Shown: positions 54,158 to 64,000 of the stretch, piece by piece
How positions within the stretch are numbered: position 1 is the stretch's first letter
Layout of the letters: each line of letters starts with the position of its first letter
Made by a program: the position numbers and the translations under genes
The notes under the pieces: generated by a model
The model's input: only the letters and a program-made list of their open reading frames with translations
What the model was told of the DNA's origin: nothing
Databases searched by the model: none
DNA from: Candidatus Woesearchaeota archaeon
Lineage (GTDB): Archaea > Nanobdellota > Nanobdellia > Woesearchaeales > ARS49
Direction: 5' to 3'
NCBI GenBank assembly: GCA_030750765.1
Contig: JASMHM010000001.1
Coordinates: forward strand, 158,541 to 222,540
Length of the DNA stretch: 64,000 nucleotides

Positions 54158-54957
54158 AGGAACCTCACCAGCTTGTTGATCTTGTCGCGCATGCTTGTGG
54201 TGAGCTTGCCAAAATGTTTTTGGCAGTCTTCGATAAATCTTGCCACTCCCTTCTTGTCTTCAGCCCGTATAGCACCTTCCAGTTGGTCTGTTGCTTTTTT
54301 GTACGCCTTTGCGACCTGCTTTGCGTAAGGATTCTCTGTTTCAATGTCTGTGTACAGTTCTGTTGGAGCGTCTAGGGCCCTACGTGCGATAGCTAGCTTG
54401 ATGCGATAGATGGGCGAGGTGAGCACTCCTTTGGGCTTGTAATGTAGTTGTTTCATAGCATGTGCAAAGGTAAAATTGCTCATGTGCGTCAAGCACTGCA
54501 CTATTGCCATGTGCTTGTCGTGTGTTCTTGGCGTCATGGTAGACACGTTTAATCCCATTTTTTTGAGTGATTGTGCGTACCAGGTATGGCTTCCGCGTAC
54601 GGGACATAGCACGAACTGTTGACCTTTCAATCCCACGCTTGGTCCGAAGACAGGATGTGAGCCTACGACATTTGCCTTGCTGTACTTTTTCATGGCTTGA
54701 CAAGGCTTTACCTTTACGGAAGTAAAGTCTGTAAGTATGGCACCTTTGCGCACATGCTTGCCTACACTCTTGATGACGTTGACCGTGTCGCGTATAGGTA
54801 CAGTGATAATGACAAGATCTGCTTGTGCTGCAGCTTGTGATGGTTTGAGCTTTGTGGTTCTGCTAGCTACCACAACAGTGTGACCTTGCTTGCGGAACGC
54901 TTTGACGAACAATCGCCCCATTTTCCCCTTGCCACCAATGATGGCTACCTTAGCCAT
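54154..54957 (-). CDS. tyrA: Prephenate dehydrogenase
   Basis: 267 residues. The Rossmann loop is GGKGKMGRLF, followed by VVVASRTTKLK, DLVIITVPIRDT and NVVGSHPVFGPSVGLKGQQFVLC, with the conserved SHPVFGP segment of prephenate dehydrogenases. It oxidises prephenate to 4-hydroxyphenylpyruvate using NAD(P)+. Encoded between chorismate mutase and pheA. Confidence 0.93.
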   Translation of the reverse strand: MAKVAIIGGKGKMGRLFVKAFRKQGHTVVVASRTTKLKPSQAAAQADLVIITVPIRDTVNVIKSVGKHVRKGAILTDFTSVKVKPCQAMKKYSKANVVGSHPVFGPSVGLKGQQFVLCPVRGSHTWYAQSLKKMGLNVSTMTPRTHDKHMAIVQCLTHMSNFTFAHAMKQLHYKPKGVLTSPIYRIKLAIARRALDAPTELYTDIETENPYAKQVAKAYKKATDQLEGAIRAEDKKGVARFIEDCQKHFGKLTTSMRDKINKLVRFL

Positions 54958-55861
54958 GTTGTTCTTGCTTACTCTTTTCTAGGATGAGTTCGAATAGCTT
55001 TTGGATGAACTGTGGGTCATCAAAGCCTAGCTCCTTGAATTGTTCAGCTCGTTTTTTGATCATGGCGAACTCTCTTTCCTTGTCTTCTGTGGGTAGGCCG
55101 TGTTCAGTTTTGTATTCTGCGATGGGTTTGGCGAGTTCGTACCTCTTAGCAAGTGTTTGCAAGATCTCTGTGTCTAGCTTGTCCAAGGCTGTTCTTGCTT
55201 CTTGAAGATCCATTTCTGTCCGAACAGCGTACGGTCTTAAAAAGCTATCCCCTGGGGGGATAACCGAGGGGTCAGATTCGTGCAACCACCTGTATGCAGG
55301 TTGCGGTCCCCGACCCCACGTCCGTGCTAGCGTGTGGACGCCTTCCCAGTCTGTGGCCACGCGTACACGAGAGGTGTCCTCTGGCACGGTGGTTGCAGGT
55401 ACGAACCAGATCGCTTTGCAGGGCAATCCTGGAAAGTGTCGTCTGTCGTCATCCACCAAGCAGGCGATATCTAGTTTTTTGCATGCCTCGCTTTTGTCCT
55501 CCGCCCCCACTATGTCTTTGAAGTACTTGGTTAGTCCATGCATGGCTAGCTTCTGCTCTGCAAATCCTAGTCGGCAGGGAGGTCTCTTTGTTATCAAGTA
55601 GAGTTCCTTTTGCTGGGCTAGCCTACGAAGTGTCTCTTCCACTTGCGGATGCAATTCTGCGTTGAGCGTGATCTCCTCATTGTTGGCGATGAGCTCTTCT
55701 TTTAGGCGAGCGTAGTTTTCTTCCCCAATAATGTTGATCATCTCAGTGGTTTCGGTTTGGTGTCCGAACAAGAGCCATCCGGCGTTCATGCTTGCCCAGT
55801 CCTTTTTCCACTTTTGATGATTCGTTATCGTTCCGTCAAAATCTATTCCTATTCTATCCAT
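54950..55861 (-). CDS. HAD-phosphatase/chorismate mutase fusion
   Basis: 303 residues. The N-terminal about 200 residues are HAD-like (IGIDFDGTITNHQKWKKDW, LITKRPP, LVDDDRRHF), a subfamily also encoded at 59557-60102. The C-terminal about 85 residues are an AroQ-type chorismate mutase (LQEARTALDKLDTEILQTLA, RYELAKPIAEYKTEHGL, EDKEREFAMIKKRAEQF). The mutase makes prephenate for the next two enzymes. Why a phosphatase-like domain is attached is unknown; it could be a leftover fusion or regulate flux. Overlaps tyrA by 8 nt. Confidence 0.85.
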   Translation of the reverse strand: MDRIGIDFDGTITNHQKWKKDWASMNAGWLLFGHQTETTEMINIIGEENYARLKEELIANNEEITLNAELHPQVEETLRRLAQQKELYLITKRPPCRLGFAEQKLAMHGLTKYFKDIVGAEDKSEACKKLDIACLVDDDRRHFPGLPCKAIWFVPATTVPEDTSRVRVATDWEGVHTLARTWGRGPQPAYRWLHESDPSVIPPGDSFLRPYAVRTEMDLQEARTALDKLDTEILQTLAKRYELAKPIAEYKTEHGLPTEDKEREFAMIKKRAEQFKELGFDDPQFIQKLFELILEKSKQEQHG

Positions 55862-56854: not shown

Positions 56855-57625
56855 ATGCCCAAGTATCACTTTACTTTACGGGAGGAGTATGATCGAAACC
56901 TTCCGGATACCCGCATTTCCACACTCTTCGAAAGAGGAAGAGACAAGATTGTTGCACTCCAGAGAACAGAATTCTTTGATAATGGTGTGAAACAGATAAC
57001 CATAGGTAATGCACAAGGTAGCCTTTTTGTTGTTGACAGAACCATGGATGGGTTAAACAAGATTCATATCGGCGAGCTCATCATGCGCAACCCACATGTT
57101 GAAGTGAAAGGCCATTCGGGAAAGGAGGGGCCCCGAGAGGACCTCAAAGAATGGGACATCACCTATTCACGACTGAGACTCCAGGAGTTAGAAAAGTGGC
57201 GAGACCCTGAGTATCGAGAAATGGTGCGAGATAAATACCGGGCAAGTGCGTGGTATACTGCCAAGCCACGAATACGCCAACTCAACATCTCTGCAGCAGG
57301 ATTGGAGAGACAAATAATAGACCTCCAACGCCACATAGATGAACTAGACGGTCAACCCGGCAACACCTACTTCTCTGAAGCTTCCAAAGTTATAGAGTCA
57401 CAATGCGAGGAGATAACGCGCGAAATAAATCTTAAGGTCGATTCAGGCCTGGTTAAGTCTCCCGCACGCAAAGATCCAAAGATGGCCTACTCCCCAGCAC
57501 TCATCGATCAAGTCAGACAAGTCACTAACATAATCCACTCTGTGTTCGACCGCCTTGCTCAACTAACGGATCAAGAAACTATCGAAAAATACTGGGAACG
57601 CGTTGTTGCTTGGGAAAAATTATAA
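56855..57625 (+). CDS. Uncharacterised 256-residue protein
   Basis: Soluble, N-terminal beta region (KQITIGNAQGSLFVVDRTM), then helices with coiled-coil character (SAAGLERQIIDLQRHIDELD). Its last bases overlap the end of the convergent CARF gene by 6 nt. CTTTAAAT lies about 30 nt before the ATG. No recognised domain. Confidence 0.55.
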   Translation: MPKYHFTLREEYDRNLPDTRISTLFERGRDKIVALQRTEFFDNGVKQITIGNAQGSLFVVDRTMDGLNKIHIGELIMRNPHVEVKGHSGKEGPREDLKEWDITYSRLRLQELEKWRDPEYREMVRDKYRASAWYTAKPRIRQLNISAAGLERQIIDLQRHIDELDGQPGNTYFSEASKVIESQCEEITREINLKVDSGLVKSPARKDPKMAYSPALIDQVRQVTNIIHSVFDRLAQLTDQETIEKYWERVVAWEKL

Positions 57626-59013
57626 GGATACGAAGGTGTGTTGTTGTACGAGTTCTTCCATTTCTTTGCTGTCAACCTTACATAATATTTGGAAGTAAGA
57701 CTTTGCAAACTCGTTAAGGTTGTTGAACACCTTTTGTCCGGCCAATCGCAAGCCATGTGCCGTGATGGACGTGTCTCGCGCACGAATAGCGCCAAACATC
57801 GCCTGCAAGCTTTCAACGGTCTGTCCCTCCACCAAATCGTCGTGCATCAAGTTAAGAAGTAAGTATCCTGTCTTTAACCCAATTTCGTTGGGGATGGGAA
57901 ACTCCTTACCGTACACTTTTTTGTGAGTTCCTTGTACGCATCATTGTAAGACGCAAGCTCAGGTGAAGAAGTGTCAATGCCATGGGTGGCCAACCGAGAT
58001 TGTGACATGAGCTCCAGACACCGATACAGTCTAGCGATAGCGTCCTCAAACTGTCCGGTTTTTGCCTTACGCAACGCATTTGCATACAGATCTGCAATAA
58101 CATGTAGAGCTTGGTTGGCCTGTGGGATGGCGTCTAGATTGACCTCTCTCAATTGATCTAGAGCGTAAGCGTTCTTGTCCACACCTGCAGGTAGGGAGAT
58201 ATTGTATTGGGCGGCACGATCCCTGCATTCGGCCATTTTCTTTCCGGCAGCCCCAAAATTGAAAGCGTTCCAATGAGCGTACGTCTCAGCCAGCAAGTTC
58301 TCTATCTCCATCGGTCGCGGATCCGTGATCTGCGTAATGAGTCTTCCATAGATCCGCATGGCCGCTCCATAATCGTGGAAGTTGAAAAGTTGATGCGCGG
58401 TTTGAAGATCTAAGTCACCAAATACATCAAAAGGATTCTTGCTGACCACCAATCTTTCTGTGCCTGGCACTCCTCGTTTTATGTCATCAAGCCAGTCCTC
58501 ATCGATGTATACTAAGTCAAAGCCAAAGAAGGCACCTACTATGGCGGATCCTGCCGACATGATGCGCTTGCCTCGGGTGAGGTCTAAGGCCACTTTCTTC
58601 CCTTTGAATCTTTGGAGATGTTTTTGGATGTGTTGATACACATCTGCAACGTCCATACCTGAGTACTCAATGGTTTCCACCTCATACTCAGATGGTTTGA
58701 GTCCAGTTCTTTCAATTATAAGGTCTAAAGCATACTTCTTGAATTCATGTGTTCCCAAGAAGTACACCTTTTTGGGACGAAGAGCCTTGATAAGCAGCAC
58801 ACGGTATTCAGGGGATAGTCCTGCGGGCAGCACCAACCAGTCATAGGTTTCTTGTACCGTGGTTTGGGCAAGAAATTTTTCTTCTGCTAATGGAAATATC
58901 GTGTCCCAGCCCAGTCTTTTGGCCTCAGCCTGATGGCCGGTCCTCATCAAGTGTGCCCATTGTTTCGCTAGGTCTGGTAGACTATCCACGAGGGAACAAG
59001 AGTACGAACGCAT
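57620..59013 (-). CDS. CARF-HEPN RNase (Csm6-like, TIGR02710 type), frameshifted
   Basis: The first frame (59013 to about 57922) encodes a CARF-like domain: LVLPAGLSPEYRVLLIKALR, KVYFLGTHEFKKYALDLIIE and VALDLTRGKRIMSAGSAIVG, then a helical part with GQFEDAIARLYRCLELMSQS. At a six-base homopolymer (T at 57917-57922 on the plus strand) coding shifts to the other frame, VYGKEFPIPNEIGLKTGYLL through AIRARDTSITAHGLRLAG. RDTSITAH fits the HEPN RNase motif R-x6-H. Related proteins cut RNA when cyclic oligoadenylate binds the CARF domain. As written the ORF stops before the HEPN motif. No CRISPR locus is nearby. Confidence 0.72.
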
Positions 59014-59020
59014 ATAAGCT

Positions 59021-59266
59021 TTAACGTCGATACACGTTCTTCAGCCACCAAAGCTTGATGAACGGTAAGGATAAGGTAGATAGTACATAACCACCTGTGG
59101 GAACGAGAGCGTTGAGCGCTGGGTTGGGAACGCCAATCTTGGTCATGAAAAACAATGCGATAGCATACGTTCCTAGCGCTATGAGTCCTCTTCTGGTGAA
59201 GCTAGACTCCCACGCTTTGTCTGCCTCTACGCGCGTGTTGCGTTCTTGGATGGTTTTTATGCTCAT
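59021..59266 (-). CDS. Small two-TM protein
   Basis: 81 residues: a charged cytoplasmic start (MSIKTIQERNTRVEADKAWE) and two membrane helices (LIALGTYAIALFFMTKIGV and GGYVLSTLSLPFIKLWWL) with Asn/Pro between them (PNPALNALVP). Similar 2TM proteins with the EADKAWE...TRR start are common, uncharacterised genes in prokaryotes. Seven bases separate it from the CARF gene. Confidence 0.65.
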   Translation of the reverse strand: MSIKTIQERNTRVEADKAWESSFTRRGLIALGTYAIALFFMTKIGVPNPALNALVPTGGYVLSTLSLPFIKLWWLKNVYRR

Positions 59267-59273
59267 TGTATGA

Positions 59274-59570
59274 CTACAAGTCTTCCCGCTTTTTATCGAT
59301 TTCGGTCATAGCATCTTTGAAGGAAGCATATTCCTCAAAGTTTTGAATCAGGAGATACACCCCAAAGTTGTGCCAACCGTTATCTTGCAAGACATGTTCT
59401 GCGCTGGTCTGGTACGCAGTAGGTACCTGCTCAGGTGTGAGTTGACGAACGTCTGACTCGGGAACGATTGGCTTTTGCTTGTTTGCTTCATCGTAGATAC
59501 GTTCCATGGATACTCCGGCCATGTAGCCTAAGTTTTCTAGATGGGCAAACACTACGTTAATCGGTGGCAT
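59274..59570 (-). CDS. Uncharacterised 98-residue protein
   Basis: Soluble helical protein (MPPINVVFAHLENLGYMAGV start, VLQDNGWHNFGVYLLIQNFE). It overlaps the HAD gene before it by 14 nt and lies seven bases before the 2TM gene, so it is part of the operon. No known domain. Confidence 0.6.
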   Translation of the reverse strand: MPPINVVFAHLENLGYMAGVSMERIYDEANKQKPIVPESDVRQLTPEQVPTAYQTSAEHVLQDNGWHNFGVYLLIQNFEEYASFKDAMTEIDKKREDL

Positions 59571-60102
59571 GCTTCCCTCCTACGTATTTGGGTGCGTGTT
59601 CCCAAGCATTCATGTGTGATACGTCATCGGCAAAGAGTTCGTCTGGCATGTGCGGAACAAAACAGACATCTTGCTTGCGCAGGTGTGTTCTGCGATCGTC
59701 TATAAGTGTGTCCACGCGTAGGGCAGCACACGTTGCAGGCTTGTCCAAGGTGCTGTGCAGCTCAGTAAAGTGTTTTCTAAGGTCAAACGTCTCTAGATAT
59801 TCCGCTGCACGTCCTATTTCGTCTGGAGTCCGGGCGGTAATGAGGTAAAGACGGTTATCCTTGGCTAGTTCTTGTATGGCATCCACGGCTCCCGGATGCG
59901 GAGGTATGTTACAGAGTACACTTGAACGGTCATACGCGGTGACCATCTCTGCGTACGCTTTCTTACCGATCTTTGGCACCAACTCTTCCTTGGTGAGTCG
60001 GTATGCCTCCATCACGAGAATACTGTGCTTCTTGAGTAGGTATTGTTGCCTCCATTTTTGTGTGTTGGGTATGGTGCCGTCAAAGTCTATACCTATGTTC
60101 AT
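59557..60102 (-). CDS. HAD-like 5'-nucleotidase-type phosphatase
   Basis: 181 residues, IGIDFDGTIPNTQKWRQQYL start, motif II LITARTPDE and motif IV DTLIDDRRTHL. Paralogue of the HAD half of the chorismate mutase fusion at 54950-55861 (both have D-F-D-G-T-I-x-N-x-Q-K-W). Relatives include 5'(3')-nucleotidase-like enzymes of the NagD/YorS type. In this operon it might dephosphorylate a nucleotide signal; this is speculation. ATGA overlap with the GHKL gene. Confidence 0.8.
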   Translation of the reverse strand: MNIGIDFDGTIPNTQKWRQQYLLKKHSILVMEAYRLTKEELVPKIGKKAYAEMVTAYDRSSVLCNIPPHPGAVDAIQELAKDNRLYLITARTPDEIGRAAEYLETFDLRKHFTELHSTLDKPATCAALRVDTLIDDRRTHLRKQDVCFVPHMPDELFADDVSHMNAWEHAPKYVGGKHATD

Positions 60103-61889
60103 GCACTCACCCCCATTACGTGATCTGCTATGGGAGTCACTAACTCACTGCTTAACTGCGAGCTTAGCTCGTAGAACGGGTTGTTATGTTTCGTCACCAC
60201 GTTGTGTGAGAGTTCGTGAGCCAGTATCGGAAGGTAGAACATGGCTGCGTCTGGCTTTCCACTTTCTACGAACTCTCTGCTGCAGGCGTTCTTACGATTG
60301 ACGAGGAGCTGGTTACTGGGCGAGTAGCATGCAGCTATACCTTCTGGCATGATGTCTGCGATGTGTATGGTGTGTTGCTCTGACAGTCCATGCCTTTGGA
60401 AGACCTCATTCACTCCGGGTAGCTCGATGAGCCCTCTCAGGTTGTGTATGAACTGTAACTCTTCCTCTGCCAGATCTGCGTCTGGAATCACTTGTGACTT
60501 CCGTTCTAGTTTGGCAGGATCAATGATTCCTTCGTCCACCAGTTTTTGGTAGAACTCTTCGTCCATGTTTCCGCGGAATGAGAGCTTGTCCAGATCGTAA
60601 ACTTTGATATCGTTGAAGCAGAGGTGATGTGCTGCTTGCACTATGGGTGGTTGGTAGCCCATCATCTCAAAGAGTTCGACGGACTCAGCGTTCTCTGCCC
60701 TGAGCAAGTAGCCTTGTTTCTTTCCTATCGCATGTAGTTGCTCGTAGCTGTATCTTCCCCGCTGATTGAATGTAGTGAATACTTCCGCCTGGGCTACGGC
60801 TTTAAGGCAGGCATCTGTGTGTTCCTCGAGGGGAAGAGATGCTAGGGAACCGTAGTTTTCTTTGAAAGCCTCGTACACTATGTTTCTCAATTCTTCCTCT
60901 CCAGTTCTGTTGAGTTCAGCGCACATCTCCCTGAAGTACGAGCGTGCTTGTTTCTTTACGTCTCTCATGAATTGTTGGTATATTTCATCCTTTCTGAAGT
61001 CGCTTCTTGAGGTGATGACGTTTAATCTATCACAGTTTACGTATCCAAACATTGCGGGGAAGCCAAATTGTGGTTTTCCCCTTCTTCGTTGGGAAGGATC
61101 TAGCATGTAGGTTGATTCCGTCTTTATGTGGATACCGTGAGATAGCAACACTAGTTTTTCCGGTGTGTACTGCTCTAAGTCGCTGTTGGCGTCGAAAAAG
61201 CACAGTCTTCCAGTGATGTCTCCGGTGAACTCCATCATGTACTTGCGTGTTTGGTGTAGGAACGCCGTACCGCCGATTTGCGCCCTATTGAGCGTTATGT
61301 ATGCGTTGATGTACTTTGCTTCTCTTTCAAGCATTTCCTCGGTTTCTTTCAGTTCCTTGCCCTCTAGACCATCAAAGCTTGCCCACACGCGGGTACTGAA
61401 GTCTCGTTTCCCCTCGAGCTTGTATCTTTTGAGCTGTACTCCTTCGGGCTCTACTTTGAACTCCAAGCGTTCGTAACCATCATTGATTTGGGCATCTATG
61501 ATGACTTCCTTCAGCCCTAAGTCTGGGTGGAAGAGGCTACTAAATCCGATTCCGAAGCGTCCGATGAATCCTTCCTCTCCTCTTTTTTCACTTCTTCCTA
61601 GCGTGCGTAGACATTCTACTTGTTCTTCGCTGAATCCTCTTCCCCAGTCCGTGCAGCTGTAGTGCGTGCGGCTTAGCTCGATCTCTATCACTCGCTCTAT
61701 GTCCGTCTCGCGGTATGCGTCGAGCGCGTTAGAAACGATCTCTCGGAATGCTAGTCGAGGTTCTTTGAATTGCTTTTCTGCTAGCTTTCTGAACGCTTTC
61801 TCGCGGTCTACGTCAAACATGAATACTCTTTCTTCGATCACGTTTCCTCGCGATGGTGGGGCGATGGTAACGGTTTTTAGTCTAGGCAT
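60099..61889 (-). CDS. GHKL ATPase with C-terminal HELSH metallopeptidase motif
   Basis: 596 residues. The N-terminal ATPase has the GHKL motifs: N-box REIVSNALDAYR, G1 DWGRGFS, G2 GRFGIGFSSLF. The middle (residues about 200-400) is Hsp90/MutL-like in layout. Near residue 560 LPILAHELSHNVVTKHNNPF is a HExxH zinc helix, with Glu in FYELSSQLSSEL as possible third ligand. A chaperone-like ATPase linked to a peptidase is unusual. It overlaps the other GHKL gene by 8 nt and the HAD gene by 4. Confidence 0.85.
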   Translation of the reverse strand: MPRLKTVTIAPPSRGNVIEERVFMFDVDREKAFRKLAEKQFKEPRLAFREIVSNALDAYRETDIERVIEIELSRTHYSCTDWGRGFSEEQVECLRTLGRSEKRGEEGFIGRFGIGFSSLFHPDLGLKEVIIDAQINDGYERLEFKVEPEGVQLKRYKLEGKRDFSTRVWASFDGLEGKELKETEEMLEREAKYINAYITLNRAQIGGTAFLHQTRKYMMEFTGDITGRLCFFDANSDLEQYTPEKLVLLSHGIHIKTESTYMLDPSQRRRGKPQFGFPAMFGYVNCDRLNVITSRSDFRKDEIYQQFMRDVKKQARSYFREMCAELNRTGEEELRNIVYEAFKENYGSLASLPLEEHTDACLKAVAQAEVFTTFNQRGRYSYEQLHAIGKKQGYLLRAENAESVELFEMMGYQPPIVQAAHHLCFNDIKVYDLDKLSFRGNMDEEFYQKLVDEGIIDPAKLERKSQVIPDADLAEEELQFIHNLRGLIELPGVNEVFQRHGLSEQHTIHIADIMPEGIAACYSPSNQLLVNRKNACSREFVESGKPDAAMFYLPILAHELSHNVVTKHNNPFYELSSQLSSELVTPIADHVMGVSA

Positions 61890-63861
61890 TGCGCATCACC
61901 TTCATTCCCACGCGTAGCATTTCGCTTTCGCGGATTTTGTCAGAGACGTTGTTGAATACTTGTTTGGACTTGATGAGCTCGCATGCTACGAAGTAGGATG
62001 CCAAGTTCGCGTTGCAGTCTGCTAGCTTCTCCATCCGTTGGATGAATGGGTGGTTGACGTTGAACGTGACATAGGTCATTCTATGTTGATAGTTTGATTG
62101 TAAGAGCCGGGTCTGGTCTGGCTCTCCTTCGAGAGTGGTAAAGTCGGCACCACACAATCTGAGGCGGTCGAAGCGGAAGGGGTTGTCAAAGCCCGTACTC
62201 GTGTCAGACGTTGCCCAGCCTCCACCTCCGGAACTGGATCCGTACATCTTGCTTACAAATCCTTCGCGTAACAAGCCGGATATGTTGTTGAAGTCTATCC
62301 CTCCAAATCGTGAGATTGATTCTCCGGTGAAGTAACCAATATCTAGGCTTTTCATTCCCTCAAAGAGGTGGTTCTCCACCAAGCTGTGTGGACTACGCAG
62401 CACGGGCAGGCCTCGCTTCTTGAACGTGGACAACTCTGTAGGGCTCAGCCCTTTATTGGTGAAGTAGATCTGCTTCCCATCCTGGCTACACTCCCTTAGG
62501 GCTTGTCTGCTTGTCCAGGTACGATCTGCTAGCTCATAGATGGGGAGATTGTCTACCATCTCACTTTGTTCTTCGGTGATTGCGTTGTAACCATAGTTGG
62601 CTTGGACGTGGAAGTAGAAGCTTCTAGCATCCTTTGAGAGACGGGCCTGGCTCTTGGACTCCGCATGCTGCCTGAACACTTCAGTGAAGTGCTTGACGGT
62701 TGCTTTTTTTACCACTCGGCAAACTCTTTCGTAGTTGCTGTTTTGTACAACTCCATTTCGTGAGATAGGGAAATCGAACTCCTTTGCGTCTATGAGGGAA
62801 CTGAACAATCCTAGAACGTGTCCCTTTTCGTCATAGTCATAGAGTTCGGCACTAGGATCAAGCATGATACCTCCACGTACCAGCTCGCTCCTTCCGATGC
62901 CCGTTAGGGCCACCACTGCCTCTAGTCCAGGTTCTGAGATGCGGAGTTTGTGGTCTCCAGAGATGTCAAAGGGCCGGTTTATGCTCTCTCCGTTCACATA
63001 GATGGGCGTCTTGACGTACTTGCACCACTGCTGGACGACTTCGAACAGTTTCTTGTTGAACGCTCTTGCTTTGTACCGCTTTAGCGGCAGCAAGAGCTCT
63101 ACATCAGTTCCTTGGTAGGGTTCGATCTCTGCAATCTCTCCACTGAGGTCGCTGTTGAAGGTAAGCTGGTGACCGCTCTCTCCGTCTCCAGTCGTCACTA
63201 TCTGGTTTTCTAAACCTAGTGCGTGGGCAAAAACTTTTCCTGCCCCCATGCACCCTATGGTGTCGATTTCTGTATCTTTGGTAGAATCGAATAGTGTCAG
63301 GTACACTCCGACGTTTTCTTTGCTCATTCCTGCTCCGTCATCCAAGACGTTGACTCGGAGAAGTTCTCTTTCGATATCGTAACCGGTCTCTATGTTGATA
63401 GCAGATGCTCCTGCATCTACGCTGTTCTGTACGAGTTCTCTGAAGCAGAGTAAGGGTTCTGCAAACTGGCCCATAAGCACTTCTGTGAGTCCTTGGGAAT
63501 CGGCTTCGAAAGCGAATCCGTAATCTCTTATGAGTTTGAGTGGTGATTGTCTGGCTTGTGCTATTCTTTCGGGTAGCGTTTCGATGTCCTCAAGGAGTAT
63601 TCCTTGGTCTGCAAACTGGCGTGCGGTGTCGGTGTTAGTGATGTAGAAGGTAGGTATGTCTACGTGAACCTGTCCCTCCATGCGTTCTGGCGCCCTCCAG
63701 GATGCAGATTCTCCCATTGCAGGAGTGAGGACGCACTCAACGCCATTTGCTGCGATGAGTTGTTTGAGTTGGCGAGAGTTTTCGGTGCGAACTATCTCCA
63801 CCGCGTCAATTGCTAGATCCGTAAGATCCTGATCTGGATCGTACAGGATGACTTTAGACAT
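61882..63861 (-). CDS. GHKL ATPase with receiver-like N-terminus
   Basis: 659 residues. Residues 1-110 (KVILYDPDQDLTDLAIDAVE, VECVLTPAMGES, IPTFYITNTDTAR) have the strand-helix order of a receiver domain but lack a phospho-Asp at the end of strand 3. Then GHKL motifs: FRELVQNSVDAGASAINIE, VLDDGAGMSKENV, GCMGAGKVFAHALG. The rest is an Hsp90/MutL-like middle and an unknown C-terminus. GGAGG stands shortly before the ATG. Together with the next gene it forms a paired GHKL system; the function is unknown. Confidence 0.85.
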   Translation of the reverse strand: MSKVILYDPDQDLTDLAIDAVEIVRTENSRQLKQLIAANGVECVLTPAMGESASWRAPERMEGQVHVDIPTFYITNTDTARQFADQGILLEDIETLPERIAQARQSPLKLIRDYGFAFEADSQGLTEVLMGQFAEPLLCFRELVQNSVDAGASAINIETGYDIERELLRVNVLDDGAGMSKENVGVYLTLFDSTKDTEIDTIGCMGAGKVFAHALGLENQIVTTGDGESGHQLTFNSDLSGEIAEIEPYQGTDVELLLPLKRYKARAFNKKLFEVVQQWCKYVKTPIYVNGESINRPFDISGDHKLRISEPGLEAVVALTGIGRSELVRGGIMLDPSAELYDYDEKGHVLGLFSSLIDAKEFDFPISRNGVVQNSNYERVCRVVKKATVKHFTEVFRQHAESKSQARLSKDARSFYFHVQANYGYNAITEEQSEMVDNLPIYELADRTWTSRQALRECSQDGKQIYFTNKGLSPTELSTFKKRGLPVLRSPHSLVENHLFEGMKSLDIGYFTGESISRFGGIDFNNISGLLREGFVSKMYGSSSGGGGWATSDTSTGFDNPFRFDRLRLCGADFTTLEGEPDQTRLLQSNYQHRMTYVTFNVNHPFIQRMEKLADCNANLASYFVACELIKSKQVFNNVSDKIRESEMLRVGMKVMRNA

Positions 63862-64000
63862 TGGGTCCTCCTAGGGTGGTTTGGATGAGCTGGTGGACGC
63901 GTTCTGCTTGCTCCCAAGGAATGCTATATTGCTTGTCTCGAACGGCTTGGAAAAGTTCTTGCACATCTTCGTCATCAGCAAGGCTTGCGTGCTCTGTTTG
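63854..64000 (-). CDS. Uncharacterised protein, N-terminus beyond window
   Basis: The last 48 residues of a gene that begins outside the window: acidic, helical (ASLADDEDVQELFQAVRDKQ, ERVHQLIQTTLGGPNV). Its TAA overlaps the ATG of the first GHKL gene by 8 nt, so the operon starts further upstream. No domain can be named. Confidence 0.6.
   Translation of the reverse strand, partial: QTEHASLADDEDVQELFQAVRDKQYSIPWEQAERVHQLIQTTLGGPNV

Follow-up and report, generated by a model that had tools for sequence, protein, structure and literature searches.

What is a gene for a Csm6-like RNase doing in an archaeon without a CRISPR array, at the end of an operon that encodes ATPases? The question is raised by a stretch of 64,000 nucleotides, here called the window, from a Candidatus Woesearchaeota archaeon (assembly GCA_030750765.1, contig JASMHM010000001.1, positions 158,541 to 222,540 of the forward strand); it is part of a 1.14-Mb genome that is 98.7% complete. 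A minus-strand operon at the right-hand end of the window encodes two GHKL ATPases, a HAD phosphatase, small proteins, and, last, a CARF-HEPN RNase. The current understanding of Csm6-like proteins is that they assist type III CRISPR. The original prediction took the GHKL pair, a two-transmembrane (2TM) protein, and the CARF-HEPN RNase to be one functional module. The explanation that we favor, at slightly better than even, is that a laterally acquired, CRISPR-independent RNase module, now disarmed or nearly silent, ends a lineage-specific GHKL/receiver operon. The main points of interest are a CRISPR-free pair formed by the CARF-HEPN gene and a convergent partner, and a break in the reading frame of the CARF-HEPN gene; an ATPase-RNase module lacks support from recurrence.

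The CARF-HEPN gene and its frame break

The open reading frame (ORF) at 57874..59013 on the minus strand encodes 379 amino acids (aa) comprising CARF, 6H, and the first half of HEPN, of the Csm6/TIGR02710 type. Its assignment as a CARF-HEPN RNase was borne out by matches to TIGR02710 (150 bits, cut-off 83.9) and to the PADLOC CARF_HEPN profile (E=1e-76), and CARF, 6H, and HEPN were all recognized by profile. The next ORF, at 57620..57916 on the same strand (98 codons), had been read as a separate gene; it is instead the C-terminal half of HEPN in the -1 frame, and carries the catalytic R...H (RDTSITAH). Positions 9-71 of PF09670, the Csm6 HEPN profile, are matched by the 379-aa ORF and positions 87-151 by the second ORF, while TIGR02710 reaches position 310 in the first and resumes at 319 in the second. 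When the two were joined by a -1 shift, the product aligned without gaps to intact orthologues, with 52% identity overall; across the junction, KELTKK|VYGKEF aligned with KKIVKDIYGIEK of an orthologue.

The closest solved relative, over residues 11-442, is Csm6 from Thermus thermophilus (PDB 5fsh), to which the catalytic pair of the joined protein, R413/H420, could be aligned; the HEPN R-x4-6-H pair is therefore present, and both residues lie in the -1 frame ORF. The joined protein shares with this Csm6 and other TIGR02710 (Cas_Cas02710) RNases the order CARF, 6H, HEPN as well as the aligned R and H, but differs in the absence of type III CRISPR from the six genomes that carry it, in its convergent partner gene, and in the -1 frame split. 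The CARF loop reads LDLTRGKRIMS here, as against LDLTSGTKAMS; because the loop differs, the ligand may differ too, which we offer as a lead only.

The frame changes at an A_AAA_AAG heptamer at 57916..57922 (minus strand), in X_XXY_YYZ phase with codons ACA AAA AAG, and the 379-aa ORF ends 13 codons past this point, and the two ORFs overlap by 43 bases. Apart from the A6 within the heptamer, the gene has no A/T run of six or more bases. The reading frame is discontinuous in this genome, whereas each of the five orthologues that we found is a single unbroken ORF. A screen that used 122 matching proteins encoded at related loci and covered about 127 regions of the genome revealed no other frame break; the assembly is thus not error-ridden.

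Orthologues, a convergent partner, and the absence of CRISPR

The five CARF-HEPN orthologues, all in other archaea, are 43-53% identical to the joined protein, except for one at 28%. The best of them (52-53%) are Pacearchaeota-type, whereas the one from the same order as our genome (L094 = G114, Woesearchaeota) is the one at 28%; the relationships suggest lateral transfer of the gene. No GHKL gene adjoins any of the five.

What does recur beside the CARF-HEPN gene is a convergent gene at 56855..57625 on the plus strand, encoding 256 aa of a new family; the original prediction did not include it. Its orthologue adjoins the CARF-HEPN gene, again convergently, in L090, L091, and L092 (G369, a Pacearchaeota genome of the same class as our own; L044 is the same locus), and is missing from the more distant L093 (43%) and L094. 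The partner is therefore adjacent to a CARF-HEPN gene in four of the four genomes in which it was seen. Across the phylum the family was found in 2 of 371 genomes, our own and G369, and each of these also has the CARF-HEPN gene.

In the three Pacearchaeota-type genomes the partner precedes, or is fused to, a part of 150-169 aa (L044:1031-1510; L091:11360-11869; L090:11357-11812) that is predicted to be RNase A-like. The structure model of this part has a mean predicted local distance difference test score (pLDDT) of 86, and its best Foldseek match is CdiA-CT Ykris from Y. kristensenii (5e3e; probability 0.99, E=6e-3, TM 0.38/0.50), a bacterial RNase A-like toxin; a conserved His and Tyr would be compatible with an active site of this type. 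The likeness lies in the predicted fold; the partner's C-part differs from the toxin in having no sequence match to it, no secretion system seen, and no counterpart in our own genome, where tblastn gave no significant match. If right, the prediction would place the RNase A-like fold in archaea. The model of the partner's N-part was poor (pLDDT 48.6). Searches of viral contigs found neither CARF-HEPN, nor the partner, nor the C-part.

The genome has no CRISPR array and no Cas1 match, as the original prediction had noted for the window, and it has neither RAMP nor Cas10, which leaves the CARF gene without a CRISPR locus of which it could be part. The same holds more widely: no RAMP or Cas10 palm domain was found in any of the six genomes with CARF-HEPN, while several control genomes scored. 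The presence of a CARF-HEPN gene in six DPANN genomes that lack RAMPs and Cas10, four of which have the same partner beside it, raises the question of what makes its ligand, and a second one, of whether the partner is a regulator or a second toxin. Elsewhere in the phylum sample, a repeat array, a Cas1-like gene, and a probable Cas2-like gene lie beside a truncated protein at a contig end (L045, G181:C39), the only weak TIGR02710 match in the sample that is located by CRISPR-like genes.

What the break may mean

We propose that a single transcription unit combines two parts with different origins: an upstream, lineage-specific operon that encodes two GHKL ATPases, a HAD protein, small proteins, and at least one receiver-like protein, and, at its 3' end, a Csm6-like CARF-HEPN gene that was probably acquired laterally and is convergent with a conserved partner. 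In the intact relatives, by analogy with Csm6, a nucleotide ligand bound to the CARF dimer would switch on the HEPN RNase and lead to dormancy or suicide, and the partner with its predicted RNase A-like domain would be a second toxin or a regulator. In our genome, the catalytic half of HEPN is one base out of frame at A6, and the RNase is probably off or made at trace level, so the working, nucleotide-activated RNase originally envisaged cannot be taken as given. As the RNase A-like domain is missing too, a disarmed module fits better than a tuned one.

Several observations weigh against this reading. Conservation of the two halves is about equal (identity to L090 of 53% and 50%), and neither shows a further lesion, so that the product must still be made unless the inactivation is very recent. 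The phase of the heptamer is right, and an overlap of 43 bases recalls that in fucA1, the proven archaeal case. Packing as tight as this speaks for at least co-expression of the CARF gene with the GHKL genes. Finally, a one-base assembly error at A6 is possible.

Such an error, which would leave the strain with an intact, stand-alone CARF-HEPN RNase, is the strongest of the alternatives, yet we think it unlikely. It would account for the loss of register by a single base within a homopolymer in a gene otherwise free of lesions; however, this would be the sole frame break in the roughly 127 conserved regions, and short-read consensus errors at A6 runs are rare.

Programmed -1 ribosomal frameshifting at A_AAA_AAG comes next and is likewise unlikely. 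It would yield a little full-length CARF-HEPN protein, a translational dosing of a toxic RNase, and the main product would be a truncated, CARF-only protein that binds ligand or restrains the activity of the dimer. The heptamer in X_XXY_YYZ phase stands exactly at the junction, at the gene's sole A/T run of this length, with a Shine-Dalgarno-like AAGGAA a few bases upstream, and both halves are conserved. The likeness to fucA1 of Saccharolobus solfataricus is strong: two ORFs in -1 register, an overlap of about 40 bases, an A_AAA_AAN heptamer (A-AAA-AAT in fucA1, where the overlap is 40 bases), and relatives that are mostly unsplit (PMC8211752). That gene was the single proven archaeal frameshift according to the same 2021 review. 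Our gene differs from it, however, in having no stem-loop at the right distance. No RNA structure downstream of the heptamer exceeded that of shuffled sequences (z -0.1 to -0.5, with pseudoknots outside the modeling); the local hairpin lies some 22 bases off, and there is no stem-loop at 5-9 nucleotides. In the orthologues the gene is unsplit and the heptamer is missing from the junction site, which is not conserved among relatives, and the same heptamer occurs in phase 150 times in the genome's ORFs. Both tRNA-Lys CUU and tRNA-Lys UUU are encoded, and by the decoding rules the CUU species would fail to re-pair in the -1 frame; the presence of both, together with the lack of an RNA stimulator, counts against efficient frameshifting. 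Runs of A6 are also indel hot spots. The break is better read as a toxic gene being disarmed than, with less likelihood, as a rare archaeal frameshift.

The view of the original prediction, that the GHKL pair, the HAD protein, the membrane protein, and CARF-HEPN make up one stress or defense module, is quite unlikely. Its seven minus-strand ORFs are all present, and their tight packing was borne out, as they overlap or are spaced 7 bases apart. The operon is larger than first noted: it holds 11 genes if the split gene is counted as one, or 12 ORFs if both halves are counted, five of the genes lying beyond the window edge and one or more of these being receiver-like. We rejected pairwise packing as proof of an operon, because 43% of same-strand neighbors in this genome lie within 10 bases of each other. 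The length of the run is the better argument: these 10-11 tightly spaced ORFs form one of the two longest such runs in the genome, the other being the ribosomal-protein/secY operon, and co-transcription of the whole run is therefore likely. Packing that is equaled only there speaks for a single module, as do the absence of CRISPR around the CARF gene and known links between GHKL and HEPN, such as the fusion of Ymh HEPN to paraMORC ATPases (PMC3710099). Against it stand the five orthologues with no GHKL genes beside them, the GHKL cassettes of the phylum that we examined, which have no CARF gene, a 2TM gene that is common and independent of the others, and the RNase half that is out of frame. 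The same set of genes was not found again in any other genome examined, an outcome that the original prediction had itself named as refuting. Since GHKL cassettes occur without CARF, the 2TM gene commonly stands alone, and the 98-aa protein encoded between the HAD and 2TM genes has no relatives in the genomes searched, the operon resembles a patchwork put together locally from parts whose histories are separate.

Less probable still is a stress or defense circuit in which a CRISPR-independent CARF-HEPN RNase with an RNase A-like partner, at the end of a GHKL/receiver operon, has its dose set by ribosomal slippage. Separate translation of the two ORFs, with the HEPN halves assembling as a split enzyme, is highly improbable: a GTG start lies at 57916, right at the junction, with AAGGAA upstream, but the break falls inside the HEPN helical bundle, with strongly conserved segments on either side, and no orthologue is split.

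The GHKL/receiver operon and its surroundings

As a system in its own right, the GHKL/receiver operon merits separate study. GHKL ATPase 1 (61882..63861, minus strand, 659 aa) has an Hsp90/MutL-like HATPase_c_3 domain at residues 142-236. GHKL ATPase 2 (60099..61889, minus strand, 596 aa) has a sacsin/HATPase_c_3-like N-terminus and a C-terminal HELSHN metallopeptidase motif, which is WLM/YgjP-like (WLM E=2.9e-5). The claim of two GHKL ATPases, one with a peptidase motif, was thus upheld by profile matches to HATPase_c_3, sacsin-type, and WLM domains, and the GHKL ATP-binding motifs are present. The receiver-like front proposed for ATPase 1 fared less well: its N-terminal ~110 aa have the look of a receiver, but no profile detects one there. 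A real receiver domain is found instead on the adjoining upstream gene, which lies past the window edge. The GHKL part is probably a cytosolic cassette for ATP-driven sensing or protein handling; the most economical guess would be a cassette powered by ATP that takes its input from a receiver domain and has a peptidase at its end.

Loci beyond the window edge are numbered in L002 (window position = L002 position + 55459). The gene with the receiver domain encodes 249 aa (L002:8395-9144); it is followed upstream by genes for proteins of 101 aa (L002:9141-9446) and 198 aa (L002:9443-10039), both receiver-like by eye and without a profile match, for a 202-aa protein (L002:10068-10676), and for 74 aa (L002:10673-10897), the stop of this last ORF overlapping the start of the next gene. 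All five are on the minus strand.

Downstream of the ATPases, the nucleotidase-like character claimed for the HAD phosphatase (59557..60102, minus strand, 181 aa) agrees with a weak match of the NT5C/BT0820 type. The 98-aa protein (59274..59570, minus strand) belongs to no family and has no relative in the 56 other related genomes searched. The 2TM protein (59021..59266, minus strand, 81 aa) is encoded between the GHKL genes and the CARF gene; relatives with 45-60% identity occur in 11 other genomes (12 of 57 including our own), and, within the ~3-kb loci that were checked, none of them adjoins a homologue of the cassette genes. By these comparisons it is a common stand-alone gene.

A profile based on GHKL ATPase 1 found matches in 17 of the 371 genomes of the phylum. 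Four of these (G111, G143, G298, and G316) have an active-looking GHKL gene followed by one for a long protein whose start appears, from its sequence, to be a degenerate GHKL domain. Three such pairs stand in tandem at one locus (L118-L119, G111:C7:66000-100000), and single pairs occur in L120, L121, and L016. Two further genomes, G028 and G346, have two GHKL genes that follow genes for a MoxR-like ATPase and for a protein in which an HExxH motif and a vWA-like segment can be read from the sequence; in both of these DPANN genomes the cassette (L013, G028:C57; L015, G346:C70) also includes a protein of 264-298 aa. PADLOC gave no match to the scanned L015 proteins, and the MoxR/HExxH-vWA/two-GHKL cassette is a candidate for an unnamed ATP-dependent system. 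No CARF gene was seen in the GHKL cassettes of these six genomes. GHKL ATPase 2 had no close homologue beyond the GHKL domain in the phylum, in plasmids, or in viral contigs.

The operon resembles the paraMORC and prokaryotic Hsp90-MutL-like GHKL conflict ATPases (PMC2292703, PMC3710099) in its GHKL domains and in having two ATPases per cassette, and their known GHKL-HEPN link offers a precedent. It differs from them in its receiver-like protein or proteins, in the C-terminal metallopeptidase motif, and in having no restriction-modification genes beside it; its neighbors, by inspection of ORFs of which only some were scanned with profiles, are genes for translation and aromatic biosynthesis. 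With the Response_reg_2/HEF_HK pairs that contain HATPase_c_3 (PMC8011034) it shares a receiver-like protein beside a HATPase_c_3 protein without a classical HisKA, but it differs in being archaeal and in having several receiver-like genes; neither PF19192 nor PF19191 (Response_reg_2/HEF_HK) was listed at E up to 0.1-1 in the scans made. We also considered whether the GHKL pair could belong to the NTP-dependent conflict systems (PMC7159879), but rejected this because a search of the text showed no mention of Hsp90 or HATPase.

Beyond the other end of the operon and the partner gene, window positions 54950-55861 encode a HAD domain fused to a chorismate-mutase-like C-terminus, the first gene of an aromatic-biosynthesis operon. 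With 33% identity over 153 aa, its HAD half is, by sequence, a paralogue of the HAD phosphatase gene of the GHKL operon.

At the operon's start, a perfect 20-base palindrome, TATTAGGAATATTCCTAATA, lies at L002:10969-10988, about 2.4 kb past the window edge, between the operon and a divergently oriented gene whose product has a MazE/AbrB-like N-terminus; it is the sole copy in the genome, allowing up to four mismatches. A comparison of insertion sites by way of this divergent regulator was uninformative, as relatives hold only distant paralogues of it. Overlapping the 3' end of the regulator gene is a gene for a 634-aa protein (L002:11839-13743), which has no family match and parts of which look receiver-like by eye.

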